Of a DNA stretch of 39,431 nucleotides, positions 787-37,211 are shown one piece after another (the first letter of the stretch is position 1; each line of letters opens with the position of its first letter). The notes under the pieces were generated by a model, which made no database searches, had not been told where the DNA came from, and saw only the letters and a program-made list of their open reading frames with translations. Source of the DNA: Rhodospirillales bacterium (lineage in GTDB: Bacteria > Pseudomonadota > Gammaproteobacteria > Nevskiales > Nevskiaceae); the NCBI GenBank assembly GCA_903970615.1, contig CAJCJH010000062.1:1-39431 (forward strand), read 5' to 3'. The translations under genes were made by a program, and so were the position numbers.

Positions 787-841
787 TTCGTTCTCCTTCA
801 AATTTGTTATGGAATCGTGGGCTATACCCAAGGCGTTACGG

Positions 842-847
842 ATTATA
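842..847 (-). promoter_or_regulatory. Perfect -10 hexamer for the SDR gene
   Basis: Read on the minus strand the bases are TATAAT, about 55 nt upstream of the TTG start. The operator-like inverted repeat at 848-861 sits directly upstream, where the -10/-35 spacer would be. No good -35 hexamer is visible; the best 17-nt-spaced candidate reads TGGATT. Binding at the repeat would block polymerase. Confidence 0.55.
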
Positions 848-861
848 GTATGCTCCCATAC
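848..861. promoter_or_regulatory. Operator-like inverted repeat GTATG-CTCC-CATAC (site A)
   Basis: Perfect 5-bp arms with a 4-nt spacer in the divergent region between the SDR gene and the lipid operon. The same architecture recurs at 8768, 10556 and (imperfectly) 14748, each upstream of an acyl-CoA or redox gene. The 5-4-5 layout resembles sites of TetR-family fatty-acid regulators such as PsrA, although the arm sequence differs. It abuts the SDR -10 box, so control of that gene is the simplest reading; control of the lipid operon starting at 984 is possible. Confidence 0.65.
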
Positions 862-983
862 CAAAATCCACAGGGCTGAAAGTCATCAAAGTCGCTGTGG
901 AGTGCAAGCGCAACGGCTCCTGCCACGTCAGCGGGAATCGGGCGCGAAACCCGGTGCCGAGAATGTTGTCGTGGGGGATGAGT

Positions 984-1877
984 ATGAGCGAAGCGGTTGT
1001 GCAAGCAGAGTCGAACGCCGCAACGGCGCGCGTGCTTGGCGATGTTTACGAACAGGGCAGCGGCTCGCCGCTGATCCTGCTGCATGGACTCAGCGGCACC
1101 TGGCAGATCTGGAAGCCGGTGATCGAACATCTTTCGGCGCATCATCAGGTGATCGCGCCGACCTTGCCCGGTCATCACGGCGGTCCGGTTTTAGGTGAAG
1201 GCGTTGAGCCATCCGTCGCGGTGATCGCCGACCTGCTGATCGAAAGCTTTGCCGCACGCGGCATTCACTCGGCGCATGTGGCCGGCAATTCGCTCGGCGG
1301 CTGGCTTTCGCTCGAACTGGCGCGGCGCGGCTTCGCCAAATCGGTGGTGGCGTTCTCGCCAGCCGGCGCTTGGCGAACCGCGGCGGATTACCGCGATGTG
1401 TCGCGGCCATTCGGCATCTTCTTCGTGCTGATGCCGTTCATCCTTTTTTTGACGACATTATTTCTCGGTTTCGCCTGGCTGCGTCACCAGCTCGGTTTGC
1501 AGACGATGGAACATGCCGAGCGCATGCCGGAATCCGATTTTCGTGATTCCTTGTCGGCACTCAGCAACACGCGAATCCTGCCGGCGCTATTGCGCACGAT
1601 GGGACGCGATGGCCCGATCGCCGCGCTCGACGCGGCCGGCATTCCGATCCGAATCGTCTGGGGCGAGCAGGACAAAGTGATTCCGTTCGAACGCTACGGC
1701 CGGCCGATGATCGAGCGCGTGCCGGCAGCCGAGTGCCTGCACATGGCGGGTGTCGGTCATGTGCCGATGTACGACGATCCTGCGCAGGTCGCGCAGCGCA
1801 TTCTCGAAGTCACGCAAGCGGCGGATGCCCGCGCAGATGCAGCGGGCGCGGCCAGTGCGGCCGGAGCGATCGCGTGA
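984..1877 (+). CDS. Alpha/beta hydrolase, first gene of the neutral-lipid operon
   Basis: Protein of 297 residues with an alpha/beta-hydrolase fold. The oxyanion segment ILLHGLSGTWQIW is near the N terminus, the nucleophile elbow reads GNSLGG (GxSxG), a WGEQDKVIP segment carries the likely acid residue, and GVGHVPMYDDP carries the likely catalytic His. A short hydrophobic stretch (FFVLMPFILFLTTLFLG) in the cap region could touch the membrane. The ATG at 984 is preferred over 978 or further upstream because GGGGG at 973-977 lies 6 nt away. Its stop overlaps the GTG start of the acyltransferase (GTGA), so the two are translationally coupled. A lipase, esterase or thioesterase role on acyl lipids fits the context; the exact substrate cannot be read from the sequence. 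Confidence 0.85.
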   Translation: MSEAVVQAESNAATARVLGDVYEQGSGSPLILLHGLSGTWQIWKPVIEHLSAHHQVIAPTLPGHHGGPVLGEGVEPSVAVIADLLIESFAARGIHSAHVAGNSLGGWLSLELARRGFAKSVVAFSPAGAWRTAADYRDVSRPFGIFFVLMPFILFLTTLFLGFAWLRHQLGLQTMEHAERMPESDFRDSLSALSNTRILPALLRTMGRDGPIAALDAAGIPIRIVWGEQDKVIPFERYGRPMIERVPAAECLHMAGVGHVPMYDDPAQVAQRILEVTQAADARADAAGAASAAGAIA

Positions 1878-3706
1878 ACGCGGATGTGCTGGCGGTGCTG
1901 CGCTCGCGCAAGAGCTACGCACGCGAAGTGCTGGCTACGGATCGTTTCCGCAAGCAGCTGGCGCTGCTGGCGAAACGCTTGAAACTAGCGCTGGAACAGG
2001 TCGAGCGCGAGGCGACGATCGGGCTCGAAGAAATCGTCACCGTGCAAAATCCGATGTACACGGCGATGTTCGATTACGGTCTCGGGCCGATGCACACGCG
2101 CGCCTGGACGCTGGAAGTCGATCCGCGCGAATTGCAGCAATTGAGGCGGCTCAACGTCAAAAATCCGCTGGTATTTCTGCCGACGCATCGCTCGTATGCG
2201 GACGCTTTCATCCTGACCAAGGTGCTGCGCGAAAACGGTTTGCCACGCAACCACATTCTCGGCGGCAACAACCTCGGATTTTTCCCGCTCGGTACCATCA
2301 TCCGCCGCTCCGGTGGCGTGCTGGTGCGGCGCAGTTTCAAGGACGATGAAATCTACAAGCTGGTGGTGCGCGAGTACCTCGGATTCCTCGTCGCGCAAGG
2401 CCGCAATCTGGAGTGGTACATGGAAGGCGGCCGTTCGCGTACCGGCAAATTGCGGCCGCCGAAATATGGTTTGTTGCGCTATCTGGTCGACGCGATCGAA
2501 AGCGGCGTGGCGAAAGATATGCTGCTGATGCCGGTGTCGATCACTTACGACCAGTTGCACGAAGTCGGCGTGATGGCGGCCGAAGAAGCCGGCAGTGCCA
2601 AGACGAAGGAAGGTCTGCGCTGGCTGGCCGGTTATGCACGCGGCCAGCAGAAATGGATCGGCACGGCGTTCGTGCATTTCGGCGAAGCGCTGAGCTTGCG
2701 CGAAGCCTTGCAGCGGGCGGATAGCGAAGTCGAAGGCAAGCAGTGGACAGTCGAGAAAATCGCCTTTGAAGTGTTCCAGCGCATCAACCGGGTGACGCCG
2801 GTGACCGCGCCCGCGCTGGTGACGCTGGCCTTGCTCGGCGTGCGCGATCGCGCACTCACCTTGCTGGAAGTAAGCGGGCTGGTGCAGCCGCTGCTGGAAT
2901 TCGCCAGGCAACGCGGTCTGCCGTCGGGCCAGCTCGAATCGCTGAGCGATGATGCCGGCCTGCTACGCACGTTGCATGCGCTGAGCAAATCGGGTGTCGT
3001 GCGCTGCCACGAAAGCGGCGCGGAAGCGGTTTACGGCATCAATCCCGGCCAGCATTCCGTCGCGGCGTTTTATCGCAACAGCGCGATCCACTGGTTCGTC
3101 AATCGCGCTATCGCCGAACTGGCGCTGCTCAGCGTGGATGGCAGTATCGACAGCGATCCAGTGCAGCAAGCCTGGGATCGCGCGTTTGCTTTACGCGATC
3201 TGCTGAAGTTCGATTTCTTCTTCAGCGACCGTCAGACTTTCCGCGAAGAAATCAAGCTCGAAGCGAGCTTGCTCGATCCCGATTTCCGCGAGCATGTGGC
3301 GACACTGAAATCCCGCCGCCAGTTGCTGCGCAAGGCGCCGTTCCTGATCGCGCATCGCGTGCTGCCGGCGTTTCTGGAGGCCTACTTCATCGTCGCCGAT
3401 CGACTGGCGCTGCGGCCGCTGGATCAAGCCATCGACAAAAACGCGCTGGTCGAAGAATGCTTCGGCGTCGGTCGTCAATATCTGCTGCAGCACCGTCTGC
3501 ATAATCCCGAAGCGATCTCGCGCGAGCTGTATCAAAACGCGTTGAAACTGGCCGATAACCGCGGTTTGCTGAAAGTGCAGGAAGGTGCGTCCGGCGATCT
3601 CGCGCAGCGGCGACGGGCATTTGCGGATGAACTCGAAACCGCGGTAAAAAATGTCGCCGCGATCGACGATCTGGAGCAGTCGCGCTTGAAGGCCGACATC
3701 GGATGA
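1874..3706 (+). CDS. PlsB-type glycerol-3-phosphate 1-O-acyltransferase
   Basis: Membrane-associated acyltransferase of 610 residues expected to transfer an acyl group to sn-glycerol-3-phosphate, the first step of phospholipid and triacylglycerol synthesis. The four acyltransferase blocks are visible in order: HRSYAD (H105 and D110, the HX4D catalytic pair), GGVLVRRSF, EWYMEGGRSRTGKL and MPVSITYD. It is shorter than E. coli PlsB (about 800 residues) and closer in size to the compact PlsB-like proteins found beside lipid-storage genes. The GTG at 1874 was chosen because it overlaps the preceding TGA (GTGA) and gives the expected N terminus; the open frame extends further upstream only inside the hydrolase gene. 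Its own stop overlaps the next ATG, so it lies inside a coupled run of lipid genes. Confidence 0.88.
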   Translation: MNADVLAVLRSRKSYAREVLATDRFRKQLALLAKRLKLALEQVEREATIGLEEIVTVQNPMYTAMFDYGLGPMHTRAWTLEVDPRELQQLRRLNVKNPLVFLPTHRSYADAFILTKVLRENGLPRNHILGGNNLGFFPLGTIIRRSGGVLVRRSFKDDEIYKLVVREYLGFLVAQGRNLEWYMEGGRSRTGKLRPPKYGLLRYLVDAIESGVAKDMLLMPVSITYDQLHEVGVMAAEEAGSAKTKEGLRWLAGYARGQQKWIGTAFVHFGEALSLREALQRADSEVEGKQWTVEKIAFEVFQRINRVTPVTAPALVTLALLGVRDRALTLLEVSGLVQPLLEFARQRGLPSGQLESLSDDAGLLRTLHALSKSGVVRCHESGAEAVYGINPGQHSVAAFYRNSAIHWFVNRAIAELALLSVDGSIDSDPVQQAWDRAFALRDLLKFDFFFSDRQTFREEIKLEASLLDPDFREHVATLKSRRQLLRKAPFLIAHRVLPAFLEAYFIVADRLALRPLDQAIDKNALVEECFGVGRQYLLQHRLHNPEAISRELYQNALKLADNRGLLKVQEGASGDLAQRRRAFADELETAVKNVAAIDDLEQSRLKADIG

Positions 3707-5139
3707 GCGCGCTCGACGCCGCAATCGCCGCCATCATGGCCGCACCGAAAGGCCCGAAAATCGGCGCCTTTTTCGATTTCGATGGCACCTTGATCGACGG
3801 CTATTCCGCCGCCGCCTATTTCGCCGATCGTGTGCGCAGTGGCGAGGCGAATTGGCAGGAGATCGTCGAGACTTTACGTCTGCTGGGAAAAGGCGATCTG
3901 AGCGACGCCGAATTCGGCGAAATCATCGGCAAGGGCATCGCCGAATGGGCCGGGAAAACCGAAGCGGAAATGCTGGAACTGTGGCAGCGCTTGTTCAGAA
4001 AAAAAATCGCCAACAACCAATTCCCGGAAGCCTGGCATCTGGTGCGCGCGCATCAGCGCATGGGCCACACCGTTGCGATTGCTTCATCCGCAACGCCTTA
4101 TCAGGCCATGCCGCTCGCGCAGGAATGGGATATCGCGCACCTGATCTGCACGCAGCCGATGATCCGCAACGGCAAGCTCACCGGCGGCATCTTCGGCACG
4201 CCGGCCTGGGGCGAAGGCAAAGCCGCCGCCGTGCGCAGATTCGCCAGTCAGCACGGCATTACGCTGACGCAGAGTTACGGCTACGCCAACGGCAATGAAG
4301 ACCTCGCGTTCCTGAATACGGTAGGCCATGCCATCGCAGTGAATCCAAAGCCGCATCTGGCCGAAGTCGCCTCGGAGAAATCCTGGCCGGTGCTGCGATT
4401 CCAGGCGCGGCGCAATGCACCAGCCGCGGCCGTCGCCCGTACCATCGGGGCTTATGGCGCGATGGCGTTGAGCTTCGCCGCCGGGCTCGGCTACGCCAAG
4501 GCCACCGGCAATACGCGCCGCGCGGTGGACATGATCGCTGCGGTCGGCAGCGAGTGGGGACTCGCAATTGCTGGCATCGAGATCGATTTGACCGGCTCGC
4601 ACAATCTGTTCGTGCGGCGGCCGTGCGTGTTTCTGCTGAATCATCAAAGCAAGCTGGATTTCTTCGTGATGATGAATATCCTGCGCAGCGGCTTTACCGG
4701 CGTCGCCAAAAAGGAAGCCGAAAATACGCCCGGATTCGGCCCGTTCATGCGCATGGCCGATATTGCCTTTATCGATCGCAGCGATGGTCGCAAGGCGCGC
4801 GAAGCCTTGCAGCCAGTGGTCGAAAAACTCAAACGCGGACTGTCGATCTGCATCGCACCGGAAGGCACGCGCTCGTATTCGCCGAGGCTCGGCGCGTTCA
4901 AGAAAGGCCCGTTCCATATTGCGATGCAGGCCGGTGTGCCGCTGGTGCCGGTGGTGATCCGCAACGCCGGCGAGATGATGGCGCGCAATGGTCAAACCTT
5001 TCGGCCGGGCACGGTTCAAGTGGCTGCATTGCCGCCGATCGAGACCACACACTGGACGCTTGTAACGATGGAACAGAATATCGCTGCGGTGCGCCAGCTG
5101 TATCTCGATACGCTGGAACACTGGCCGCAAAAACAGTAA
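3703..5139 (+). CDS. HAD-IB phosphatase / PlsC acyltransferase fusion
   Basis: Two-domain protein of 478 residues. The N-terminal half is a HAD-IB hydrolase: FFDFDGTL (DFDGT at 25-29) supplies the nucleophile motif, with a SerB-like IASSATP and a later GYANGNEDLAFL block. The C-terminal half is a 1-acylglycerol-3-phosphate acyltransferase: NHQSKLDF (H314 and D319), FIDRSDGRKAR, IAPEGTRS and VPLVPVVIRN. Known fusions of this type occur in mycobacteria and some proteobacteria. One polypeptide could therefore acylate lysophosphatidate and remove a phosphate, giving diacylglycerol for the downstream WS/DGAT. That coupling is inference, since the HAD substrate is not established by sequence. The ATG at 3703 overlaps the preceding TGA (ATGA). 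Confidence 0.88.
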   Translation: MSALDAAIAAIMAAPKGPKIGAFFDFDGTLIDGYSAAAYFADRVRSGEANWQEIVETLRLLGKGDLSDAEFGEIIGKGIAEWAGKTEAEMLELWQRLFRKKIANNQFPEAWHLVRAHQRMGHTVAIASSATPYQAMPLAQEWDIAHLICTQPMIRNGKLTGGIFGTPAWGEGKAAAVRRFASQHGITLTQSYGYANGNEDLAFLNTVGHAIAVNPKPHLAEVASEKSWPVLRFQARRNAPAAAVARTIGAYGAMALSFAAGLGYAKATGNTRRAVDMIAAVGSEWGLAIAGIEIDLTGSHNLFVRRPCVFLLNHQSKLDFFVMMNILRSGFTGVAKKEAENTPGFGPFMRMADIAFIDRSDGRKAREALQPVVEKLKRGLSICIAPEGTRSYSPRLGAFKKGPFHIAMQAGVPLVPVVIRNAGEMMARNGQTFRPGTVQVAALPPIETTHWTLVTMEQNIAAVRQLYLDTLEHWPQKQ

Positions 5140-5157
5140 TCGCGCGGCCAGAGAACG

Positions 5158-6165
5158 ATGAACTCGAAAATGCGCGTGGCAGTGCTGGGCGCCGGTTCCT
5201 GGGGCACGACGGTGGCCTCGCTGACCGCTGCGAATGCGCCGACGCTGCTCTGGTCGCGCGATCCGCAAACCACTGATCAGATCAATTGCGAGCATCGCAA
5301 CGACAAGTATCTGGCCGGCATGAGTCTGCATCCCGAGCTGCGTGCGACCACTTCGCTGGAAGAAGCGCTGCGGCATTGTGATGTGCTGGTGATGGGCGTG
5401 CCTTCGCACAGCTTTCGCGAAACGCTGCGCGCCGCTGCCGCGATATTACGGCCGTGGGTGCCGGTTATCAGTCTCGCCAAAGGGCTTGAGCAGGGCAGCA
5501 ACCGGCGCATGACGGAAGTGATTTCGGAAGAGCTGCCCGGTCATCCCGCCGGTTTGCTGGCCGGCCCCAATATCGCCAAGGAAGTGCTGCAAGGCCTCGC
5601 GGCCGCGGCGGTGATTGCGATGACGGACGAGCAGATCGCGCGCTCGCTGCAACCGATTTTCAGCCGAAGCGTGTTTCGCATTTATACCAATACCGATGTC
5701 GTCGGCTGCGAACTCGGCGGCCCTTTGAAGAATGTCATCGCCATTTCGGCGGGTATGGCGGATGGTCTCGGCGTCGGCCAGAACACGCGCTCGCTGGTGA
5801 TCACGCGCGGCCTTGCGGAAATCACGCGGCTCGGTGTTGCGCTTGGCGGCCGTCCCGAAACCTTTTCCGGACTCACCGGCCTCGGCGATCTGCTGACGAC
5901 CTGCATGAGTCCGTTGTCGCGCAACCGGCAGGTCGGCGAACGGCTGGCGCAAGGCGAAACCACGGCAGAAATCGTCGCCTCGATGAAGATGGTCGCCGAA
6001 GGCATCAAGACCAGTTCGGTGGTGATGGAACTGGCGCACCGTCATGCTCTGAGCTTGCCGATTGCGGCCGAAGTTTCGGCCGTGGTGAAAGGCGAACATA
6101 GCGCGGCGCAGGCGTTTCGTGGTCTGCGCAGAATGGCGGCGGGTTCCGAAGGTGAAGCCGCTTGA
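5158..6165 (+). CDS. gpsA: NAD(P)-dependent glycerol-3-phosphate dehydrogenase
   Basis: Cytosolic enzyme of 335 residues that reduces dihydroxyacetone phosphate to sn-glycerol-3-phosphate, the backbone for the acyltransferases encoded just upstream. The Rossmann motif GAGSWG is at residues 11-16. Family blocks [28 protein letters not shown] and [14 protein letters not shown] are intact, and the length is normal for GpsA. It begins 18 nt after the HAD/PlsC stop; the Shine-Dalgarno is weak, and an in-frame ATG at 5170 (MRVAVLGAG) is an alternative start. In many bacteria gpsA sits with unrelated housekeeping genes, so its place here inside a lipid-assembly operon supports dedicated supply of glycerol-3-phosphate. 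Confidence 0.95.
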
Positions 6166-6263
6166 ATACCGAGCCGCAAATCCAGAATCAACAAAAAATT
6201 TACGAAGTCCACACATCAAAAACGTAAGTATTTGCAATTTCCACAGGAGCGTTTCGTAACCCC

Positions 6264-7754
6264 ATGAGCCATTCCGAATTCACTGCCGAAGTCCTCGAAG
6301 AGTTGCGCAACTGGGGCGGCCCGGCCGAAATGAGTGCCTTTGAAAGTGTGATGTGGCGCGCCGAAATCGAGCCGCGCCTGCGCTCCACGACGACCTCGGT
6401 TTTTTTTCTCGATCAGGAGCCGGATTGGGAGCGTCTCTACAACGGCCATCAATGGCTGGTGCGCGCGGTGCCGCGATTTCGGCAGCATGTGGTCGAGCCG
6501 GCGTTCGGCGTCGGCATGCCGACCTGGGTGATCGATCGCAATTTCAATCTCGACTATCACCTGCGGCATGTACGCTTGCCCGCGCCGGGCAGCGAGCGCC
6601 AGCTACTCGACTTCGCGCAGACGCTGGCGATGCAGCAGTTCGACAAATCACGCCCGCCCTGGGAAGCCACCTTGATCGGCGGACTCGAAGGCGGCCGCGC
6701 CGCTTACGTGCTGAAAATGCACCACGCGGCTTCGGACGGGATGGGCATCATCCAGCTGCTGACGCGTACACTTTCGCGCAGCCGCAAGCCCTCGCTACGG
6801 CCGGTGCCGAAAGCAGACGCGCGTGAGCGCGGCGTGCGCAGCGGTTCGCAACTGGCGCGCGAACGCCTGCTGGATTTGCCGAAAGCGACGGCCGGCAAAA
6901 TGAGCACGCTGCTGGGTTCGATCGGCCGTCTCGCGCAACAGCCGGATTCCGCGCGTAAATTCATTGACTACACCGATTCGGCCAAGCGCATGCTCGGCAT
7001 CAAGCCGGTAGCCGGCTCGCCGCTGTTGAAGCGTCGTAGTCTGTCGTGGCGTTTCGATGCGATCGAAATTCCGCTGGATGATTTCAAGGCGGCTGCGCGC
7101 GTTTGCGAAGGTTCGGTCAACGACGTCTTCCTTGCCGGCTTGATCGGTGGCTTCCGGCGTTATCACGAAATCATGGGGTTGCCGATTGCGCAGATGCCGA
7201 TCGGTTTTCCGATCAGCCTGCGCACCGCGGACGATACTCCCGGGGGTAACAAGTTCGCCGGCTCGCAATACGCCGCACCGGTGAGCGAACTGGACCCGAT
7301 CGCGCGCGTGCGCCATGTGCAGGCCTTCGTGCGAGACACGCGCAACGAGCCCGCGCTCGACATCATGGTGCGGCTGATGCCGCTGGTAGTTCGCATGCCC
7401 ATGTCGGCGGTCACCAAGCTCACGCTCGATTTCACCGGCGCGCAGGACGCGCAGATCAGCAATATTCCGGGCATCAATCATCCGGTGTACATGGCAGGTG
7501 CTGAGGTTACGCACTTCTGGCCGTTCGCACCGGTGCCGGGCTGCGGCATGATGATTACGATGATGTCGCACAACGGCCGCTGCTGCATCGGCATCAACAG
7601 CGACCGCGCCGCCGTGATCGAACCCGAGCTGATGACGAGTTGCCTGCGCGAAGGTTTGCAGGAAATGCTGGCACTGGCCAAACCTGCTGGGGCTGACATT
7701 AAAGTCGCGCCGAAGCGCAGCCGCGCCGCCAAAACCGGGAAGGCATCCACATGA
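6264..7754 (+). CDS. Wax ester synthase / diacylglycerol acyltransferase (WS/DGAT)
   Basis: Protein of 496 residues from the bacterial WS/DGAT family, which makes wax esters or triacylglycerol from acyl-CoA and an alcohol or diacylglycerol. The catalytic HHxxxDG motif is intact (HHAASDG, residues 153-159), preceded by PPWE (131-134) where the family's PLW motif sits. The C-terminal domain carries a VNDVFLAGLIGGFRRY segment and an AQISNIPGIN segment. Length fits the family (about 450-500). A 98-nt AT-richer gap separates it from gpsA, and the nearest good Shine-Dalgarno (AGGAG at 6244-6248) is rather far from the ATG, so this gene may have its own promoter. Its stop overlaps the next start. 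Substrate preference cannot be told from sequence. Confidence 0.93.
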   Translation: MSHSEFTAEVLEELRNWGGPAEMSAFESVMWRAEIEPRLRSTTTSVFFLDQEPDWERLYNGHQWLVRAVPRFRQHVVEPAFGVGMPTWVIDRNFNLDYHLRHVRLPAPGSERQLLDFAQTLAMQQFDKSRPPWEATLIGGLEGGRAAYVLKMHHAASDGMGIIQLLTRTLSRSRKPSLRPVPKADARERGVRSGSQLARERLLDLPKATAGKMSTLLGSIGRLAQQPDSARKFIDYTDSAKRMLGIKPVAGSPLLKRRSLSWRFDAIEIPLDDFKAAARVCEGSVNDVFLAGLIGGFRRYHEIMGLPIAQMPIGFPISLRTADDTPGGNKFAGSQYAAPVSELDPIARVRHVQAFVRDTRNEPALDIMVRLMPLVVRMPMSAVTKLTLDFTGAQDAQISNIPGINHPVYMAGAEVTHFWPFAPVPGCGMMITMMSHNGRCCIGINSDRAAVIEPELMTSCLREGLQEMLALAKPAGADIKVAPKRSRAAKTGKAST

Positions 7755-8662
7755 ATTCGAGCACGAGCGGCGATCGGAATTTGAAATTGCAGCACAGCGA
7801 AGCGAGCCTGTTCGGCGTCGGCGATGTGAAGATTTTCTATCAGCTATGGGCGCCGGAAAATCCGCGCGCGGTGGTCGTCATCGCGCATGGTCTGGGCGAG
7901 CACAGCGGACGTTACGCGCAAGTGGCCGAACAGCTTTGCGCCGGCGGCTGCGCGGTGTACGCGCTGGATCATCGCGGGCACGGCCGCTCCGGTGGCGCGC
8001 CAGCGTATGTGGATCGCTTCGCCAACGCGGTCGCAGATATGGATCAGTTGGTCGATATCGCACGCCGCGAGCAGCGCACGCTAGCGCTGAAGCTGCCGCT
8101 GTTCCTGCTCGGCCACAGCATGGGTGGCGCGCTCAGCCTGAGTTATGCGCTGAAATTCCAGGGCAAGCTCGATGGCCTGATTCTATCCGGCCCGGCCGTA
8201 GCGCTCGATGGTGCGCCGCCGTTACTGGGGCCATTGGCGAAATTCCTCTCGGCGGTGACGCCGAAACTGGGCCTGTTCTCGGTCAAACCCGAACTGGTCA
8301 GCCGCGATCCGGCGGCTGTTGCGGACTATGGTGCGGACCCGCTCAACTGCCACGGCAAAGTGCCTGCGCGAACGCTGGGCGAAATCATCCGGCTGGTGGA
8401 ATGGCTGCCGGATGCCTTATCGACGCTGAGCTTGCCGCTGCTGGTAATGCACGGCAGCGAAGACAAACTCGCCGGCCCTTCGGGCAGCAGGATGATCGTC
8501 GAGCGCGTCAGTTCAACGGATAAAACGCTGAAAATCTATCCCGGCCTGTTCCATGAAATCTTCAATGAATTGCCGCAGGATCGCGCGCAGGTGCTGGCTG
8601 ATCTGTGTGGCTGGGTCGCAGTACACATCGCCAGCTTTTCGGCGCCTGCCAAACGCGCTTGA
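7751..8662 (+). CDS. Monoacylglycerol-lipase-like alpha/beta hydrolase
   Basis: Serine hydrolase of 303 residues in the PldB/monoacylglycerol lipase group. Visible elements are AHGLGEHSGRY (HGxGE oxyanion region), LDHRGHGRSGG, the nucleophile elbow GHSMGG with Ser123, a HGSEDKLAGP segment with the likely catalytic Asp, and GLFHEIFNE with the likely catalytic His. The ATGA overlap with the WS/DGAT gene implies coupled translation, so a lipid-making and a lipid-cleaving enzyme are made together. It could release fatty acid from monoacylglycerol during turnover of storage lipid; lysophospholipase activity is an alternative. The operon ends here, about 50 nt before a strong hairpin. Confidence 0.9.
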   Translation: MNSSTSGDRNLKLQHSEASLFGVGDVKIFYQLWAPENPRAVVVIAHGLGEHSGRYAQVAEQLCAGGCAVYALDHRGHGRSGGAPAYVDRFANAVADMDQLVDIARREQRTLALKLPLFLLGHSMGGALSLSYALKFQGKLDGLILSGPAVALDGAPPLLGPLAKFLSAVTPKLGLFSVKPELVSRDPAAVADYGADPLNCHGKVPARTLGEIIRLVEWLPDALSTLSLPLLVMHGSEDKLAGPSGSRMIVERVSSTDKTLKIYPGLFHEIFNELPQDRAQVLADLCGWVAVHIASFSAPAKRA

Positions 8663-8710
8663 TTGGGGAAAGGTCGAGCAAGGCGAAGCTTGCGGGCGGA
8701 TCGATTCCCA

Positions 8711-8731
8711 GAGCCGGGATCAACCCGGCTC
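8711..8731 (+). terminator. GC-rich hairpin after the lipid operon
   Basis: GAGCCGGG (8711-8718) pairs perfectly with CCCGGCTC (8724-8731) around an ATCAA loop. No T-run follows, so it is not a textbook intrinsic terminator; it could be a weak terminator or an mRNA 3' stabiliser separating the lipid operon from the MaoC unit. Confidence 0.4.
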
Positions 8732-8767
8732 CCGCCTGCGCCCATTGCGATGATCGGCCGCAAAACA

Positions 8768-8781
8768 GTATGCTTACATAC
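8768..8781. promoter_or_regulatory. Operator-like inverted repeat GTATG-CTTA-CATAC (site B)
   Basis: Perfect 5-4-5 inverted repeat ending 35 nt before the MaoC ATG, in the position expected for a promoter-blocking operator. It is followed by TAATTG, comparable to the TATAAT that follows site A in the gene direction. Identical arms occur at 848 and 10556. Confidence 0.65.
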
Positions 8782-8816
8782 TAATTGAAAAATGCGGATA
8801 CGAGGAGTGTGTTGCG

Positions 8817-9272
8817 ATGGCCGGGTTATATTTCGAGCAGTTCAAGCCGGATCAGGTGTTCAAGCACGAGATTCGCCGCACGGTCACCGAGGCCGACAAC
8901 ATCTGGTTTTGTGCTGCGACCTACAACCCGGCGCAGATCCACATCGATGCCGAATACTGCCGCAATACCGAGTTCGGCAAGCCGCTGGTCAATTCGATTT
9001 TCACACTCGGGCTGGTGCTGGGCTTGTCGATCCAGGACACCACGCTCGGTACCACGGTCGCCAATCTCGGCATGACCGATACCAAGTTCCCCAAGCCGGT
9101 TTTTGCCGGCGACACGATCCGTTCGGTGACTACGGTGGTCGATCTGCGCGAGAGCAAATCGCGGCCGGAAAACGGCATCGTCACGTTCCGTCATGAAGGC
9201 TACAACCAGCGCGACGAACTGGTCTGCACCACCTTGCGCCAGGCCTTGATGCTGCGCGTTCCGAACACCTGA
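8817..9272 (+). CDS. MaoC-like hot-dog dehydratase/hydratase
   Basis: Protein of 151 residues with a single MaoC-type hot-dog domain, a family that hydrates enoyl-CoAs or dehydrates hydroxyacyl-CoAs. The segment AATYNPAQIHIDAEYCRNTEFGKPLVNS matches the hydratase-2 region in outline (NP...H.D), followed by the usual FPKPVFAGDTI strand. The canonical GD pair before NP is replaced by AT, so the usual catalytic Asp seems absent or shifted, while the His remains. It is the first gene after site B and is followed 71 nt later by an acyl-CoA dehydrogenase on the same strand, so the two probably form one unit. The sequence GAGGAGTG at 8801-8808 provides a ribosome site. Confidence 0.82.
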   Translation: MAGLYFEQFKPDQVFKHEIRRTVTEADNIWFCAATYNPAQIHIDAEYCRNTEFGKPLVNSIFTLGLVLGLSIQDTTLGTTVANLGMTDTKFPKPVFAGDTIRSVTTVVDLRESKSRPENGIVTFRHEGYNQRDELVCTTLRQALMLRVPNT

Positions 9273-9343
9273 AGTTACATTCCTGAAGTCGAATTGCGCC
9301 GGTGCGGCGCGCGGCTTCATGCCCATTTATTTCGGAGGACACG

Positions 9344-10510
9344 ATGGATTTTGCAATCAATCCCGATCATCAATCGATCCGCGACGGCGTCGGCGCCGTG
9401 GTGCGTTCGTTCAAGGATGAATACTGGCTGGAGCGGGACGAAGACGGCAAATTTCCATTTGAATTCCATCGCGCGATGGCGGAAGGCGGCTGGCTCGGAT
9501 TGACCATGCCGGAGGAATACGGCGGTGCGGGTTTGGGCGTCACCGAAGCGATGATCATGATGCACGAAGTAGCCAGCCACGGCGGCGGTATGTCGGCGAC
9601 ATCGACCGTGCATATCAATCTATTCGGTCCACATCCGATCGTCGTGTTCGGTACACCGGAACAGAAGGCGCGCTGGATTCCGCGACTCGTCGCCGGTCAG
9701 GATCAATGCTGCTTCGGGTTCACCGAACCGGATGCCGGGCTCAACACCACCGCGATCAAAACCTTTGCGCAGAAAGTGCCGGGCGGCTACAAGGTCAACG
9801 GCCAGAAAGTCTGGACTTCGACCGCGCAGGTCGCCAACAAGATCATGCTGCTGACGCGCACCACCAAGCTGGAAGACTGCAAGCGTCCGACCGATGGCAT
9901 CACCATTTTTTATACTGATCTCGACCGCGCCAAAATCGCGGTGACGAAGATTCCGAAGATGGGCCGCAAGGCGGTCGATTCGAATTCGATCTTCATCGAT
10001 GATCTTTTCATTCCCGAGGAAGATCGAATCGGCGAAGAAGGCAAGGGCTTCAGCTACATTCTGCACAGCCTCAATCCGGAGCGCGTACTGATCGCGGTGG
10101 AGGCCATCGGCATTGGACAGGACGCCTTGCGCCGCGCCTCGAAATACGCCCGCGAGCGCGTGGTGTTTGGCCGGCCGATCGGCCAGAACCAGGGCATTCA
10201 GCATCCGCTGGCGGAAAAGTGGATGCAGCTTGAAGCCGCCTATTTGCTGGTATCCAAGGCGGCCTGGCTTTACGACAACCACTTGCCGTGCGGGGCGGAA
10301 TCGAACGCCGCAAAATTCATGGGCGCGCGTGCCGGCTACGATTCCTGCTTGCAGGCGGTGCTGACATTCGGCGGCTTCGGTTATGCGAAGGAATATCACG
10401 TCGAGCGGCTGCTGCGCGAAGTCACCGTAACCCGCATCGCGCCGATCACCGAGCAGCTGATTCTTTCCTTCATCGCGGAAAAAGTGCTGGATCAGCCGAA
10501 ATCGTACTGA
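9344..10510 (+). CDS. Acyl-CoA dehydrogenase family protein (first)
   Basis: FAD-dependent acyl-CoA dehydrogenase of 388 residues, expected to form an enoyl-CoA and pass electrons to ETF. Visible family blocks are LTMPEEYGGAGLG, CCFGFTEPDAGLNTT, YKVNGQKVWTS and FGRPIGQNQGIQHPLAEKW. The C-terminal site where many members carry the YEGT catalytic Glu here reads RIAPITEQ, so the base is probably E246 in NPERVLIAV, the alternative position used by isovaleryl-CoA and long-chain dehydrogenases. The start at 9344 (MDFAINPDHQ) is chosen over 9302 because TTCGGAGGACACG gives a strong ribosome site. It follows the MaoC gene with no operator of its own. Substrate unknown; a branched or alicyclic acyl-CoA would fit the neighbours. 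Confidence 0.88.
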   Translation: MDFAINPDHQSIRDGVGAVVRSFKDEYWLERDEDGKFPFEFHRAMAEGGWLGLTMPEEYGGAGLGVTEAMIMMHEVASHGGGMSATSTVHINLFGPHPIVVFGTPEQKARWIPRLVAGQDQCCFGFTEPDAGLNTTAIKTFAQKVPGGYKVNGQKVWTSTAQVANKIMLLTRTTKLEDCKRPTDGITIFYTDLDRAKIAVTKIPKMGRKAVDSNSIFIDDLFIPEEDRIGEEGKGFSYILHSLNPERVLIAVEAIGIGQDALRRASKYARERVVFGRPIGQNQGIQHPLAEKWMQLEAAYLLVSKAAWLYDNHLPCGAESNAAKFMGARAGYDSCLQAVLTFGGFGYAKEYHVERLLREVTVTRIAPITEQLILSFIAEKVLDQPKSY

Positions 10511-10555
10511 TTATCGAAAGTTCTCATTGGCGCAGAAGTCGTCTTTACAACGATC

Positions 10556-10569
10556 GTATGGAGGCATAC
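10556..10569. promoter_or_regulatory. Operator-like inverted repeat GTATG-GAGG-CATAC (site C)
   Basis: Here the palindrome extends to 8-bp arms (ATCGTATG, spacer GAGG, CATACGAT, 10553-10572). It lies 35 nt upstream of the second acyl-CoA dehydrogenase, nearly the same distance as site B from its gene. It is the strongest of the four related sites. Confidence 0.68.
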
Positions 10570-10604
10570 GATGATCCATTGCCGAATGATGCCGGAGTGT
10601 CACC

Positions 10605-11834
10605 ATGTTTGAGCGCAGCCTTTTCCACAGCGAACACGAGATGTTCCGCACCTCGGTTCGTAAATTCATCGAAAAGGAGATCGCGCCTTTCCATGCGCAG
10701 TGGGAACACGAGGGCATCGTGCCGCGCGACCTCTGGACCAAGGCCGGTGAAGCCGGCATGCTGTGCTGTACGATTCCGGAGGAATACGGCGGTCTCGGCC
10801 TCGATTATCTGTTCGACGTCGTCGTCTTCGAGGAGATGGCACGCAGCGGTTTCACCGGCCCTGGATTCCTGATCCACTGCGATCTGGTGGCCACCTACGT
10901 GAAGTCTTTCGGCTCTGAGGAGCAGAAGAAATACTGGCTGCCGAAGATGGTTTCCGGCGAAGCCATCGGCAGCCTCGGGATGACCGAACCGCACGCCGGC
11001 TCCGATCTACGCAGCATCCGCACGAAGGCCGTGCGGGATGGCGACGACTTCGTCATCAACGGCCAGAAAGTCTTCATTTCCAACGGCCAACTGTGCGATG
11101 TTCTAGTGCTGGCGACCAAGACCGAAAGCCTTGCCGGCGGCAAAGGCATTACGCTGTTTCTGGTCGATACTTCGCTGCCGGGTTTCAAGCGCGGCAAGAA
11201 TCTCGAAAAGCTCGGTCTTAAGGCGCAGGATACTTCCGAGCTGTTCTTTGAAAATCTTCGCGTGCCCGCCAGTGCCATGCTCGGCGCCGAGGGCGAGGGT
11301 TTCAAATTGATGATGACCAAGCTGTCGCAGGAGCGTCTGGCGCAGGCGATTCGTTCGGCGACGGTGGCGGAGCATCTGGTGCAGCTGACGGTGGACTACA
11401 CCTCCGAGCGCAAAGCTTTCGGCAAGACCCTCGGCGATTTCCAGAACACGCAATTCAAGCTGGCGGAGATGAAAACCGAAGCGGTCATCGGCCGCGTGTT
11501 CACCGATCATTGCATCCGGAAATTCATCGATGGCCAGCTGGACGAGGTCGATGCTGCGATGGCGAAAATGTGGCTGTCGAACCTGCATTGCCGGGTTGCC
11601 GACGAATGCCTGCAACTTTTCGGCGGCTGGGGCTATATGTGGGAATATCCGATTTCGCGCGCGTTCGCTGATGCACGTATCGTCAAGATCGCTGGCGGCT
11701 CGATCGAAATCATGAAGCACATCATTGGCCGCTCGTTATTCAGCGCGTCGCGCAGTTCCGAGCGCGTCGGCTCTGCGACGAAAAGTGATTCAAGCGTGGC
11801 GGCGGGAAAAACCTTGGGTCAAGCAGTGGCTTGA
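10605..11834 (+). CDS. Acyl-CoA dehydrogenase family protein (second, long-chain type)
   Basis: Protein of 409 residues with the complete acyl-CoA dehydrogenase layout: IPEEYGGLGLDY, GSLGMTEPHAGSDLRSI, FVINGQKVFISNG, RKAFGKTLGDFQNTQFKLAEM, and CLQLFGGWGYMWEYPISRAF near the C terminus. The C-terminal flavin segment reads KIAGGSIEIMKHII, the GG-(S/T)-x-EIM form typical of long-chain and branched-chain members, and the probable catalytic base is E243 in SQERLAQAI. About 30 Ser/Ala-rich residues follow the domain and look dispensable. It has its own operator (site C) and is followed 141 nt later by an acyl-CoA ligase, so it may start a two-gene unit. Confidence 0.9.
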   Translation: MFERSLFHSEHEMFRTSVRKFIEKEIAPFHAQWEHEGIVPRDLWTKAGEAGMLCCTIPEEYGGLGLDYLFDVVVFEEMARSGFTGPGFLIHCDLVATYVKSFGSEEQKKYWLPKMVSGEAIGSLGMTEPHAGSDLRSIRTKAVRDGDDFVINGQKVFISNGQLCDVLVLATKTESLAGGKGITLFLVDTSLPGFKRGKNLEKLGLKAQDTSELFFENLRVPASAMLGAEGEGFKLMMTKLSQERLAQAIRSATVAEHLVQLTVDYTSERKAFGKTLGDFQNTQFKLAEMKTEAVIGRVFTDHCIRKFIDGQLDEVDAAMAKMWLSNLHCRVADECLQLFGGWGYMWEYPISRAFADARIVKIAGGSIEIMKHIIGRSLFSASRSSERVGSATKSDSSVAAGKTLGQAVA

Positions 11835-11975
11835 ATATTCGCAGTATTGCCGAAGCTTCTTGAAGTAAGCCAAGTGATCAAGAACTTCCTCGAAGAAATG
11901 ACGACTCGATTTTCGAGGGAAAGGTAGCCCATAAAAAAGCGCAGGCGTGAATTGAAACTGCGCAGGAGGAACGCT

Positions 11976-13547
11976 GTGTGGCTGCACGCTGAAATAAAGT
12001 CGCTGGCCGATATTCCGCGTTATTACGCGCGCAAGCTACCGGAAAAAACCGCGCTGATCGATGGCGTTGGCGCGCGCACGTTTCGTGAACTGGATCAAAC
12101 CAGCAGCCGTATTGCGGCGGCACTGGTTGCCGCCGGTATTCCGCGGCGCTCGCATATCGGCTTCATCGGCAAAAACTCGGCGCGCTACTTTGAAGCGCTG
12201 TTCGGCGCAGCCAAGGCAGGCTGTGCCGTCGCGCCGCTCAACTGGCGTTTGTCGGAGGCCGAGCTCGCTCTGGTCATCAACGATGCGCAGTGTCCGATCG
12301 TGTTGGTCGATAAGGAATTTGCGGAGACCGCAAAAAGTCTGCAGCAGCGCTGCGAGCATCCGTTCCGGGCTATCCAGTTCGATTCTACAACCAAGGTTCC
12401 GAATGAATTGGAAACCTGGCTCGGCGCGAATGCGGCCGCTGATCCGTTTATCGAAACTGCGCCAGAAGATACCGCGGTTTTGATCTACACCTCCGGCACT
12501 ACCGGCAAACCCAAGGGTGTGCAGCTCACGCATCGCGGCTTCGGCCACATGCGGCTTTGCGAGCATCTGGAGCCAGCGCTGCAATGGCAGCCCGACGACG
12601 TGATGTTGATGGTGATGCCGGCGTTTCATCTGGTCGGCACCGGCCTTTCGGTGCAGGCGCTTTACAATGGTTCGCCCGTTTCGATTCTGCCGGCGCTGGA
12701 CCCGGGACGCACCTTGAAACTGATCGAGCGCGATCGCCCGACGATCTGCGCCTTGGTGCCCACTGCGATCCAGATGCTGCTCGATCATCCCGATGCGGCG
12801 ACGACCGATTTTTCGTCGCTGCGACTGGTCATGTACGCCGGTTCGCCGATCAGCTCGCGGTTGTTGCAGCGCGCGATCATGCAGATGAAATGCCGCTTCA
12901 TGCAGTTTTACGGTGCCACCGAATCATCCGGCGCACTGACGCTGCTGCGGCCGGAACAGCACGACCTCAACAACGAAGCGCGCTTGCGCTCCTGCGGCAC
13001 ACCGTTGCCGCTGATCGAAATCAAGATCGTCGACGCCGATGGCCAAGAATTGCCGGATGGCGCAACCGGCGAATTCTGGGTGCGCGCGCCTTCGCTGTTC
13101 GGTGGCTACTGGAATCAGCCGGAAGCGACCGCGGCCGTTTTTCAGGACGGCTGGTATCGAACCGGCGACGCCGGCTTCCGCGACACGGAAGGACTTTTAT
13201 ATATCGTTGATCGCATCAAGGACATGATCGTCACCGGCGGCGAAAATGTTTACTCGGGCGAGGTCGAGCAAGCGCTGCAAAAACATCCTTCCGTGCGGCT
13301 CTCGACCGTGATTGGAACGCCGGACGAACGCTGGGGCGAGAAGGTCACTGCGGTGGTGATCACAGCCGATGGCGCGCAACTCACCGCCGAAGAAATCATT
13401 GCGCATTGCCGCAGCTTGATCGCTGGCTACAAGGTTCCGAAAACCGTGATCTTCGTCGACACTTTACCGATGACCGCAACCGGCAAAGTGCTCAAGCGCG
13501 CCGTGCGCGAGCAGATTGCGAAAGAGATCGCGTCTCGGGTTGGATAA
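11976..13547 (+). CDS. AMP-dependent acyl-CoA synthetase/ligase
   Basis: Adenylate-forming ligase of 523 residues that activates a carboxylic acid to its CoA thioester. Motifs in order: IYTSGTTGKPKGV (phosphate loop, TSGTTGKPKG at 172-181), QFYGATESSG, GYWNQPEATAAVF, WYRTGDAGFRD and VDRIKDMIVTGGENVYSGEVE, then the C-terminal ATGKVLKRAV with the catalytic Lys. The start is the GTG at 11976, since AGGAGG lies exactly 6 nt upstream; a TTG 24 nt earlier would place that Shine-Dalgarno inside the gene. Following the second acyl-CoA dehydrogenase, it would supply the CoA substrate for the cluster. Fatty-acid-type specificity is likely, but the acid itself is unknown. Confidence 0.88.
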   Translation: MWLHAEIKSLADIPRYYARKLPEKTALIDGVGARTFRELDQTSSRIAAALVAAGIPRRSHIGFIGKNSARYFEALFGAAKAGCAVAPLNWRLSEAELALVINDAQCPIVLVDKEFAETAKSLQQRCEHPFRAIQFDSTTKVPNELETWLGANAAADPFIETAPEDTAVLIYTSGTTGKPKGVQLTHRGFGHMRLCEHLEPALQWQPDDVMLMVMPAFHLVGTGLSVQALYNGSPVSILPALDPGRTLKLIERDRPTICALVPTAIQMLLDHPDAATTDFSSLRLVMYAGSPISSRLLQRAIMQMKCRFMQFYGATESSGALTLLRPEQHDLNNEARLRSCGTPLPLIEIKIVDADGQELPDGATGEFWVRAPSLFGGYWNQPEATAAVFQDGWYRTGDAGFRDTEGLLYIVDRIKDMIVTGGENVYSGEVEQALQKHPSVRLSTVIGTPDERWGEKVTAVVITADGAQLTAEEIIAHCRSLIAGYKVPKTVIFVDTLPMTATGKVLKRAVREQIAKEIASRVG

Positions 13548-13627
13548 GAGGTCTGGCTGGATTTTTTGCCCGGATGCAACAAGGCATGTTCAGCAAGGGC
13601 GAAACCTTCCGAACGCTTTCCAACCCT

Positions 13628-14698
13628 TCACGGCATTTTCGAGATGTGGCTTTCGTCGGTGAATTTGTCGTAGAAAATCTTGTCGAGCCGCATGCCGGTT
13701 TCGGTCATCGATGCAATGCCGGCGTCGATCATTCCCGGCGGCCCGCACATATAACCTTCGGCATTGCTCCAGTCGATTCCCGGCATCGCGTCGGTAATGA
13801 ACTGCGTGACCAGACCGCGCGCGCCGGTCCACGCGCTATCCGCCGGCTCGTGCGACAGCACCGGCATCAACACGAACTTGTCTGCCCACGAAGAAGCAAT
13901 CGCCTGAATCTGTTCGAGCGCATAAAGATCGGCTTGCGTGCGCGCGCCAAACAGGAATGCGCAGGGGCGTTTCACACGATCCTGACGGCCCGCTTCGAGC
14001 AGACTCAATAGCGGCGCCAGCCCGCTGCCGCCGGCGATGCAGATCATCGGTGCTGTGCCGGCATGCAAATGAAATGCGCCGTGCGGACCTTCCACATCGA
14101 GCGCGATATCCTTCAGCCGACCGGCGAATAATTCCTCGGTAAACGCACCGCCAGGCACTTTGCGGATGAAGAAATTCACCGAAGCGAGCCCCTCACGATC
14201 AGGTGCGTCCGCAAACGAATAATTGCGCGCACGGTTGATATTCGGCGACTTGAGATTCGCGTATTGCCCCGCGATAAATTTGATCGGGCGATCCAGCTCG
14301 ACGGTGATGCGCACGATATCGTGCGTCAGCGTTTGGGTATCGACCAGTTTGCCGGTGAATTTCTCCGGCGGCGGCGCATCGAGCGCCTGGATTTCGACTT
14401 CGACCTGGGTCAGCGGATCCTTGGGAATTGCCTGGCACGCGAGGATGAACCCGGCCGCGATTTCCTGCTGCGAAAGTGTGTAGCCGAAATCGCTCAGCGC
14501 GCTGACGCGGCCGGCCTTGAGCTTGCACTTGCACGAGCCGCAGGTGCCGACCGTGCAGTTGTGCGGAAACGGAATGCCATTGGCCAGCGCGGCTTCGAGC
14601 ATGGTCTGGCCGCTGGGCACTTCGTAGCGCGCGCCGAACGGTGCCACTTCCACGAATTTCGCTTCTTTGGGCGCAAACAGCGATTTGAACAAACCCAT
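13628..14698 (-). CDS. [2Fe-2S] ferredoxin / FAD / NAD(P) reductase
   Basis: Three-module electron-transfer protein of 356 residues. A plant-type [2Fe-2S] ferredoxin domain comes first, with ligands C48, C53, C56 and C88 (CX4CX2C...C). An FAD-binding domain follows (RNYSFADAP, the RxYS motif), then an NAD(P)-binding domain (ICIAGGSGLAPLLSLL, later YMCGPPGMID) and a C-terminal FYDKF. This is the layout of oxygenase reductase components such as DmpP-type phenol hydroxylase reductase. No oxygenase is present in the window, so the partner is elsewhere. GGAGG sits 4-5 nt upstream of the ATG. An imperfect copy of the shared operator lies 50 nt upstream, tying it to the acyl-CoA genes, with which it converges. 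Confidence 0.88.
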   Translation of the reverse strand: MGLFKSLFAPKEAKFVEVAPFGARYEVPSGQTMLEAALANGIPFPHNCTVGTCGSCKCKLKAGRVSALSDFGYTLSQQEIAAGFILACQAIPKDPLTQVEVEIQALDAPPPEKFTGKLVDTQTLTHDIVRITVELDRPIKFIAGQYANLKSPNINRARNYSFADAPDREGLASVNFFIRKVPGGAFTEELFAGRLKDIALDVEGPHGAFHLHAGTAPMICIAGGSGLAPLLSLLEAGRQDRVKRPCAFLFGARTQADLYALEQIQAIASSWADKFVLMPVLSHEPADSAWTGARGLVTQFITDAMPGIDWSNAEGYMCGPPGMIDAGIASMTETGMRLDKIFYDKFTDESHISKMP

Positions 14699-14747
14699 GA
14701 TTCCTCCAATTTCATTCGCTGCTTGATGGCAGAGTTTTTCTTGATTA

Positions 14748-14761
14748 GTAGGCTACCATAT
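14748..14761. promoter_or_regulatory. Imperfect operator copy GTAGG-CTAC-CATAT (site D)
   Basis: Same 5-4-5 layout as sites A-C with one change in each arm, 50 nt upstream of the reductase start. Read towards the gene, it ends CTAC-TAATCAA, close to the CATAC-TAATTGA at site B. The match is weaker, so this site is less certain than the other three. Confidence 0.45.
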
Positions 14762-14877
14762 CATCTGCCTGATGGGTTTCGATTGTCGGTCGGCCACGCA
14801 GAAAAATGATTGGCCGCGAAGCGCAAATTGCCGACTTGCCGCAAAATCCGCCATCGAATTTAACTGCGGAAAAATCC

Positions 14878-36974: not shown

Positions 36975-37211
36975 ATGGAAGTCGGTGCTTACGAAGCCAA
37001 AACTCATTTGCCCAAGCTGCTGGAGCGCGTCGCACGCGGCGAGCGCATCACCATTACCAAGCACGGCAAGCCCATTGCTACGCTGGTGCCGGCCGCTTCC
37101 GCACCCGCTTCCATGGATGATTTGTTCGCGCGTATGGATGCGTTCCATGCGAAACAGAATCGCAGCTGGCGCGAGATCGTCTGGCTCAGGCACGAGGGAC
37201 ATAAATACTGA
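36975..37211 (+). CDS. Type II antitoxin, Phd/YefM family
   Basis: Protein of 78 residues with the Phd/YefM DNA-binding N terminus: EVGAYEAKTHLPKLLERVARGERITITKHGKPIATLVP. The C-terminal 30 residues (MDDLFARMDAFHAKQNRSWREIVWLRHEG) should wrap the toxin. It overlaps the toxin start by one nucleotide (TGATG) and has a strong inverted repeat at its promoter, so it probably represses its own operon. Pairing of a Phd-type antitoxin with a VapC toxin is common. Confidence 0.93.
   Translation: MEVGAYEAKTHLPKLLERVARGERITITKHGKPIATLVPAASAPASMDDLFARMDAFHAKQNRSWREIVWLRHEGHKY

Follow-up and report, generated by a model that had tools for sequence, protein, structure and literature searches.

The contig CAJCJH010000062.1 of the Nevskiaceae assembly GCA_903970615.1, analysed here over its entire length of 39,431 nt (hereafter the window), carries four copies of an inverted repeat of the type GTATG-N4-CATAC, each located shortly before a gene of acyl-CoA or redox metabolism. 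The repeat is very probably a genuine control switch common to a range of proteobacteria, and the genes behind it are likely to form a dispersed regulon for the catabolism of alicyclic or terpenoid acids, kept under a MarR-family repressor that would be released by a CoA-ester. MarR-type catabolic regulons are a known kind of system, and this instance is new and well supported. The first-pass annotation of the window had suggested an undescribed regulon. One operator does precede four acyl-CoA/redox units, is found above background, lies mostly between genes and is conserved at orthologues; as to "undescribed", the motif strings were not found in 5.39 million open-access papers and, judged by title or opening of the abstract, no paper on such a regulon was among the matches listed, with subscription journals mostly outside this coverage.

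The window is contig C62 of a 3.17-Mb genome assembled in 126 contigs with a completeness of 98.15% (G, C and L numbers are our handles for genomes, contigs and loci). Perfect copies of the repeat start at positions 848, 8768 and 10556, against an expectation of 0.005 from a first-order model of the window, and the copy at 14748 has two mismatches. Matches with up to two mismatches occur at chance level (seven, including the three perfect ones, versus 7.15 expected), so that site D needed support of another kind. This came from a 22-bp matrix for which 85 sites upstream of regulon genes in other genomes were used, with 71 distinct 22-mers among them and the sites of the window's own genome excluded. 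The matrix ranks A, C, B and D as the top four matches in the window, the fifth reaching only 4.9 bits, and in 30 shuffled windows the best score was on average 4.7 bits and at most 12.7. The assumption that site D is a chance match, suggested by the mismatch count, was ruled out by its score of 19.9 bits against 4.9 for the next match, and all four sites are real by the matrix test. There are also eight distinct sites with at most one mismatch before homologues of the reductase gene in relatives, and operator A has an orthologous site in relatives. It should be mentioned as a caveat that two GC-rich palindromes of the same 5-4-5 form reach comparable counts in the window (CGGCG four, TGGCG three).

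The surroundings of the sites are as initially described. The distance to the gene start is 46 or 61 nt for the SDR gene, depending on the start codon, 35 nt for both the MaoC and the acyl-CoA dehydrogenase 2 (ACAD2) genes and 49 nt for the [2Fe-2S] reductase gene, although these starts are approximate as the genes were called by codon usage. Site A abuts a TATAAT (842-847, minus strand) on the side of the SDR gene, and TAAT comes after B and D but not after C. No further copy was found by the matrix scan of the window, nor was a TetR or MarR domain found by a Pfam scan of its 37 called genes, one of which has no family assigned.

Table 1 Coordinates of the operators, the predicted promoter and the genes discussed in the text. 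Positions refer to the window unless another contig is given; a dot means that no strand was assigned.
Feature	Position	Strand	Remarks
Operator A	846..863 (core 848-861)	.	perfect; SDR gene on one side, divergent six-gene lipid run on the other; matrix 27.0 bits
Operator B	8766..8783 (core 8768-8781)	.	perfect; before MaoC; matrix 23.4 bits
Operator C	10554..10571 (core 10556-10569)	.	perfect; before ACAD2; matrix 24.2 bits
Operator D	14746..14763 (core 14748-14761)	.	GTAGGCTACCATAT, two mismatches; before [2Fe-2S] reductase; matrix 19.9 bits
Predicted ACAD2 promoter	10544..10572	+	-35 TTTACA (10544-10549), 17-nt spacer, -10 TACGAT (10567-10572)
SDR, BadH/MrcD-like 2-hydroxycyclohexane-carboxyl-CoA dehydrogenase	19..801	-	start 801 as called, or TTG at 786
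Six-gene neutral-lipid run	984..8662	+	alpha/beta hydrolase (ABH1), GPAT/PlsB-like acyltransferase, HAD+LPLAT, GpsA, WS/DGAT, monoacylglycerol-lipase-like
MaoC, (R)-specific enoyl-CoA hydratase-like	8817..9272	+	
Acyl-CoA dehydrogenase 1 (ACAD1)	9344..10510	+	
Acyl-CoA dehydrogenase 2 (ACAD2), MrcB-like	10605..11834	+	
Long-chain acyl-CoA ligase (AMP-binding)	11976..13547	+	downstream of ACAD2; exceeds NF004837 cut-off
[2Fe-2S]/FAD/NAD reductase, BenC/AntC-like	13628..14698	-	
MarR gene, own genome	G000:C70:19621-20262		another contig than the window; second copy, 51% identity, on C99

The operator is wider than the 14 bp searched. Its consensus, calculated from 90 target-linked sites, is approximately ATAGTATGGWWCCATACTAT and may also be written as ATAGTATGG-WW-CCATACTAT; T is found at position -2 in 88% of these sites, together with the mirror A, A at position -3 in 62%, and G/C at the inner positions in 77%, the outer bases not having been part of the search pattern. 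The own genome contains six perfect copies, three of which are in the window, versus one for the reversed pattern. Across the genus (13 genomes searched, own included) there are 45 perfect copies versus four, and in eight genomes from other genera of the order three versus 12. Only five of the 84 distinct perfect sites in the Nevskiales stretches lie inside called genes (at least 60 bp from both ends), and a named target is present within 260 bp for 53 of them, these stretches having been fetched around sites.

The operator is kept at orthologous genes. All 14 close orthologues of the acyl-CoA dehydrogenase 1 gene (ACAD1; at least 86% identity, own included) have a site with at most one mismatch upstream of MaoC or ACAD1, and where ACAD2 follows ACAD1, a site with at most two mismatches precedes ACAD2 in 12 of 13 cases, G039 being the exception; in G035 ACAD2 is located elsewhere in the genome and is preceded by a perfect site. 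Two of the 16 more distant ACAD1 loci (59-68% identity) have a site with at most one mismatch in their flanks. Further targets in relatives include the divergent SDR/ABH1 promoter, the [2Fe-2S] reductase, ECHa, ECHb, an operon with ketosynthase-like and thiolase genes, a desaturase/AlkB-like gene, which in the own genome is preceded by the perfect site C70:2707, an HGD/BcrA-type operon, x298, FMN oxidoreductase genes and the regulator genes TetR-A, TetR-B and MarR. The concern that the repeat might occur at background frequency, sit mainly inside genes or be lost upstream of orthologues is thus not borne out in the genome and genus scanned.

A MarR-family protein is the most likely regulator, in preference to a TetR protein, and its gene lies on another contig of the genome. 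In the G002 orthologue the MarR domain was recognised by the Pfam models MarR/MarR_2 at an E-value of about 1e-13, and the best NCBIfam model for the own MarR is SlyA, at 65 bits under the equivalog cut-off of 120. Its structure model, with a mean pLDDT of 84.8, shows with confidence the winged helix of MarR proteins, a fold shared with SlyA and its relatives; the best PDB match is SlyA 1lj9, and DNA-bound SlyA 3q5f is among the first five. The roughly 50 N-terminal residues are of low confidence and are mostly missing from the shorter alphaproteobacterial homologues. The SlyA operator differs from that of the regulon.

Association with the sites was calculated for 85 genomes of the order, where MarR (E up to 1e-30) was found in 20 and TetR-B (at least 63% identity) in 13. 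Three or more perfect sites occur in 17 genomes; of these, 16 have MarR, own included, and 11 have TetR-B. The eight genomes with MarR and without TetR-B contain 26 sites versus 2.6 expected from genomes with neither, and the 64 genomes with neither contain 21 sites, below the 31 of the reversed control. MarR is also found inside a compact divergent cluster in Alphaproteobacteria (Novosphingobium, Sphingopyxis and Bradyrhizobium; L090, L100, L121, L388), with ACAD1-MaoC-thiolase-ketosynthase in one direction and x298-ACAD2-MarR-SDR-ECHa in the other. In the own genome, contig C66 (L385:1-15915) carries a MarR paralogue (43%) and an ACAD1 paralogue (68%) among eight weaker variant sites (7-15 bits) within 15.9 kb, all eight located in gaps between called genes; this paralogous cluster is possibly a sister regulon. 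As for other regulator genes, a MerR and a LuxR-type gene were each seen near a single site in G007.

TetR repressors of fatty-acid metabolism such as PsrA, FadR and FabR have palindromic operators before acyl-CoA genes, and the first-pass annotation had likened the repeat to operators of this type and proposed asking whether further hits lie upstream of a TetR gene. Two TetR genes are indeed located near sites in relatives; neither is present in all site-bearing genomes nor tracks the operator distribution, and the TetR reading is left unsupported, TetR-B being not found in the own genome and five others of the 17 site-rich genomes and TetR-A lacking a close orthologue in several. As an alternative, the regulon might be controlled by TetR-B, a protein with an AefR-like C-terminal domain whose own divergent promoter carries a copy of the operator and whose gene would be missing here through an assembly gap. 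A site with at most one mismatch lies upstream of 12 of the 13 TetR-B orthologues (some 330 bp ahead of the match in G031); such a pattern typifies autoregulation and is seen less often for MarR, and this is the main point for TetR-B. Its presence in 11 of the 17 site-rich genomes fits as well, and a gap is conceivable given the completeness and contig number of the assembly. Yet TetR-B was not found in G000, G012, G024, G028, G039 and G044, of which G039 is a single contig and G044 an isolate genome whose sites are found before the same genes all the same. It occurs in only three of the 80 loci searched, all from Nevskiales, though matrix matches occur in other classes, and no truncated TetR-B was found at contig ends of the own genome among 17 TetR_N matches. 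Since the regulon persists in genomes where TetR-B was not found, TetR-B was discarded as the main regulator, and this reading, assembly gap included, is improbable. In G002 TetR-B is located about 3.8 kb from the site GTACGGTACCATAC (C5:93397 and 97224; L148, L193), which in G010 and G032 adjoins TetR-B, and an insertion between them may explain the distance.

TetR-A, a FadR-like protein encoded beside the HGD/BcrA-type dehydratase operon, could likewise be the regulator, with the other sites as remote targets. It is present in the own genome, its closest NCBIfam model is the Bacillus fatty-acid FadR (under the cut-off), and four genomes (G008, G002, G035 and G044) have a site between TetR-A and HGD1, while in G010 one precedes TetR-A at the end of a contig. 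The same gap, however, has no site within two mismatches in the own genome and none within one in G028, and among the 21 genomes searched only homologues of 32-39% identity were found in G005, G006, G007 and G011, which hold three to eight perfect sites. The missing orthologues and the siteless gap in the own genome led to TetR-A being discarded, and control of the regulon by it is very improbable. The neighbouring operon itself encodes an (R)-2-hydroxyacyl-CoA dehydratase or a benzoyl-CoA-reductase-like enzyme of the HGD/BcrA type (L143:12031-15535 in G008, L051:2765-6258 in the own genome), and in several relatives it is preceded by a regulon site.

The fatty-acid scope proposed at first is too general, as the genes match those for the cleavage of alicyclic and monoterpenoid rings (bad/mrc). 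The best NCBIfam model for the window SDR is BadH (309.7 bits, cut-off 431.2) and for the ECHa of G008 BadI (407.9 bits, cut-off 467.6). Compared to the plasmid-borne set of Azoarcus KH32C, which served as a proxy for the Castellaniella proteins, the window proteins show identities of 82% (SDR), 82% (MaoC), 85% (ACAD1) and 79% (ACAD2), the own-genome ECHa (C99) 90% and MarR 51%, and the MrcF, MrcG and MrcH partners from G008 54, 63 and 42%. Proteins of Azoarcus KH32C are named, in the accessible sections of PMC4109377, as the closest relatives of Castellaniella MrcD (85%) and MrcE (88%), and insertion mutants in mrcC and mrcF are described there as showing no growth on limonene. The cluster on a Sphingopyxis macrogoltabida plasmid also includes a gene annotated as alkane 1-monooxygenase and one for a [2Fe-2S] protein, whose products show 49 and 51% identity to the desaturase/AlkB-like protein and the reductase of the regulon. 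From these bad/mrc-like enzymes and the content of the Sphingopyxis cluster, ring-shaped (alicyclic or terpenoid) acids appear to be the most likely substrate class.

The position of the sites relative to promoter-like boxes is consistent with repression by occlusion. Operator C sits in the spacer between the -35 and -10 boxes of the predicted ACAD2 promoter and overlaps the -10 box, and TTTACA precedes the site in eight of the 11 ACAD2 promoters compared, window included. In four of 12 MaoC promoters TAGTAT follows a TTGACC box at a distance of 16 nt, so that the operator overlaps the -10 box there; the window's own MaoC promoter fits this arrangement less well. Without substrate, a MarR dimer would occupy the operator over the -10 box, the spacer or both and block RNA polymerase. 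After uptake and activation of a ring acid, MarR would be released by a CoA-thioester formed early in the pathway, a CoA-ester being the probable inducer by analogy with BadR and CouR. Genes for entry oxidation (the desaturase/AlkB-like oxygenase and the [2Fe-2S] reductase), ring cleavage (SDR as MrcD/BadH-like, ECHa as MrcE/BadI-like and ACAD2 as MrcB-like enzyme) and later beta-oxidation (MaoC, ACAD1, the ketosynthase-like protein and thiolase) would then be induced jointly, along with the neutral-lipid operon, the TetR-A and TetR-B genes in some genomes and the gene for MarR in a minority. The operator, its targets and conservation, the association with MarR and the overlap with promoter-like boxes follow from computation, while direct binding by MarR, its repressing action, the CoA-ester ligand and the exact class of substrate are what we infer.

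MarR might instead bind these sites as an activator or dual regulator of fatty-acid and neutral-lipid metabolism and not as a repressor of ring-acid genes, which we regard as unlikely. Site A also faces the six-gene neutral-lipid operon, and SDR and ECHa fall short of the BadH and BadI cut-offs; against this, the position of operator C in the spacer and over the -10 box suits repression, and the own SDR and ECHa share 82 and 90% identity with proteins of Azoarcus KH32C, a strain whose proteins the accessible part of PMC4109377 places closest to MrcD and MrcE. The neutral-lipid run, which has an identical gene order in the relative G006 (L141), shares its promoter region and operator A with the BadH-like gene, and storage lipid synthesis may be induced together with ring-acid catabolism.

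Among the closest known systems is BadR of Rhodopseudomonas palustris and Aromatoleum sp. CIB, a MarR protein which, according to the available text of PMC9795900, controls the bad-ali genes for cyclohexane-carboxylate and is released by cyclohexane-carboxyl-CoA. Shared features are the repressor type (predicted here), the BadH/BadI-like ring-cleaving targets and an operator over promoter boxes (promoter-like ones here), and the BadR effector is a CoA-ester of the pathway. The BadR operator given there is CAATnnATTG (core CAAN4TTG), in contrast, and none was found within 60 bp of sites A-D, which rules out plain identity with BadR on the operator, the BadR protein sequence not being part of the comparison; the BadR genes are described as compactly clustered, whereas here they are dispersed and tied together by an operator of 18-20 bp. 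The mrc island of Castellaniella defragrans 65Phen, as far as it is presented in the accessible sections of PMC4109377, resembles the regulon in its MrcB-F-like enzymes and in an (R)-specific enoyl-CoA hydratase, an acyl-CoA dehydrogenase and a thiolase beside a hypothetical protein, and in the three MarR genes listed for the island, one of them near an acetyl-CoA acetyltransferase; neither an operator nor a function of these regulators is mentioned in those sections. The Nevskiales set differs from the island by the addition of the BcrA/HGD-type operon, the TetR genes and the neutral-lipid operon, and by its dispersal. CouR of Rhodococcus jostii RHA1 is reported, in the available portion of PMC4737184, as a MarR repressor released by p-coumaroyl-CoA, with the operator cATTGA-N5-TCAATg; it likewise governs a CoA-dependent catabolic regulon through one inverted repeat at several promoters and is displaced by an acyl-CoA, but its substrates are aromatic, its operator is another one, and the own MarR is only distantly related to it (E = 6e-6 to the 6c28 chain named CouR).

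Outside the order, a looser form of the operator occurs in some Alpha- and Betaproteobacteria. In the 150 bp before ACAD2 of 71 non-Nevskiales loci, a site with at most one mismatch was found in five and with at most two in ten, with none for the reversed control at either threshold. Of these ACAD2 loci, 29 include MarR; matrix matches scoring 12 bits or higher were obtained in 11 of the 29, 34 in total, and in their shuffled versions none. The recognition helix, whose start falls at residues 112-118 of the own MarR by alignment with SlyA, could be read in 23 of the 29 loci, with six left out (L093 reads LTK with a looser expression, L116 was unread). Matrix matches are present in eight of nine loci of the xGK helix type (30 matches) and in one of 14 of the LTK type (one match; Fisher 1.6e-4, uncorrected for phylogeny). 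In the LTK loci the 18-bp frame is occupied by another palindrome, similar to TNGTAAACNNGTTNACNA and located for the most part in the promoter of ketosynthase/x298 (or ACAD2); with the AAC-type pattern TAGTAAACNNGTTTACTA, ten of 14 have a match with at most three mismatches (reversed control 0) and all 14 with at most four (16 matches, control four), a post hoc count since the pattern was taken from words common to the divergent promoters of loci later counted. For the xGK loci the same pattern gives none of nine at three mismatches and three of nine at four (control two matches). No GTATG type was among the top words when exact 5-bp palindromes with spacers of 0-8 were listed for the intergenic DNA of 17 alphaproteobacterial loci.

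It has, in our estimate, a somewhat better than even chance of being true that one MarR clade governs alicyclic and terpenoid-acid catabolism in Alpha-, Beta- and Gammaproteobacteria through an operator whose 18-bp frame, TAGTA-xxx-NN-xxx-TACTA, is fixed and in which the inner three bases of each half-site, TGG or AAC, change in step with the helix (xGK..LG versus LTKVAIG), while the targets stay constant and the arrangement shifts from a compact divergent cluster to a dispersed regulon. A contig of a metagenome-assembled genome labelled Klebsiella pneumoniae (L094) also has a MarR-ACAD2 pair and operator-like sites, and its label is probably wrong.

Several observations weigh against a MarR-controlled regulon of this scope. 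Genome G011, 88% complete, has three sites and no close MarR (best 41%), and as MarR belongs to the gene cluster, its co-occurrence with the sites could mean that it is a target and not the regulator. The best MarR copy has a site with at most one mismatch within 250 bp upstream in only four of 20 genomes (G000, G002, G032 and G044), and such a site also precedes the second copies in G035 and G039; autoregulation of MarR is therefore not general. No named target was assigned to 31 of the 84 perfect sites, and two of the six in the own genome (on C7 and C74) are not before regulon-type genes. The BadH and BadI scores lie beneath the equivalog cut-offs. The 42 loci outside the order with no MarR in the stretch contain 14 matrix matches in ten loci (shuffled 0), although their MarR gene may be elsewhere in the genome. 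The correlation of helix and operator is confounded by phylogeny, the LTK loci being alphaproteobacterial where titled; the AAC-type pattern was counted in the very loci that had supplied it, and six of 29 helices are unread. The clearest helix difference (G112/T112) is located beside, and not at, the equivalents of Ser62, Val64 and Arg65, the DNA contacts of SlyA listed in the accessible part of PMC4737184 and used for the alignment.

Two other features were observed towards the end of the window, namely adjoining genes for a Phd/YefM-type antitoxin and a PIN-domain protein resembling a toxin-antitoxin pair (36975-37618), and an MmeI-type restriction-modification enzyme (37684-39431), probably cut off by the contig end.

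The observation of four sites has led to predictions of the operator, its regulator, the set of targets and the class of substrate, linking the Nevskiales to the breakdown of ring-shaped terpene-like or naphthenic acids. The operator can aid in annotating pathway genes that are dispersed over the genome, and the two operator and recognition-helix types form a natural pair, providing material for studying how MarR proteins change their specificity.

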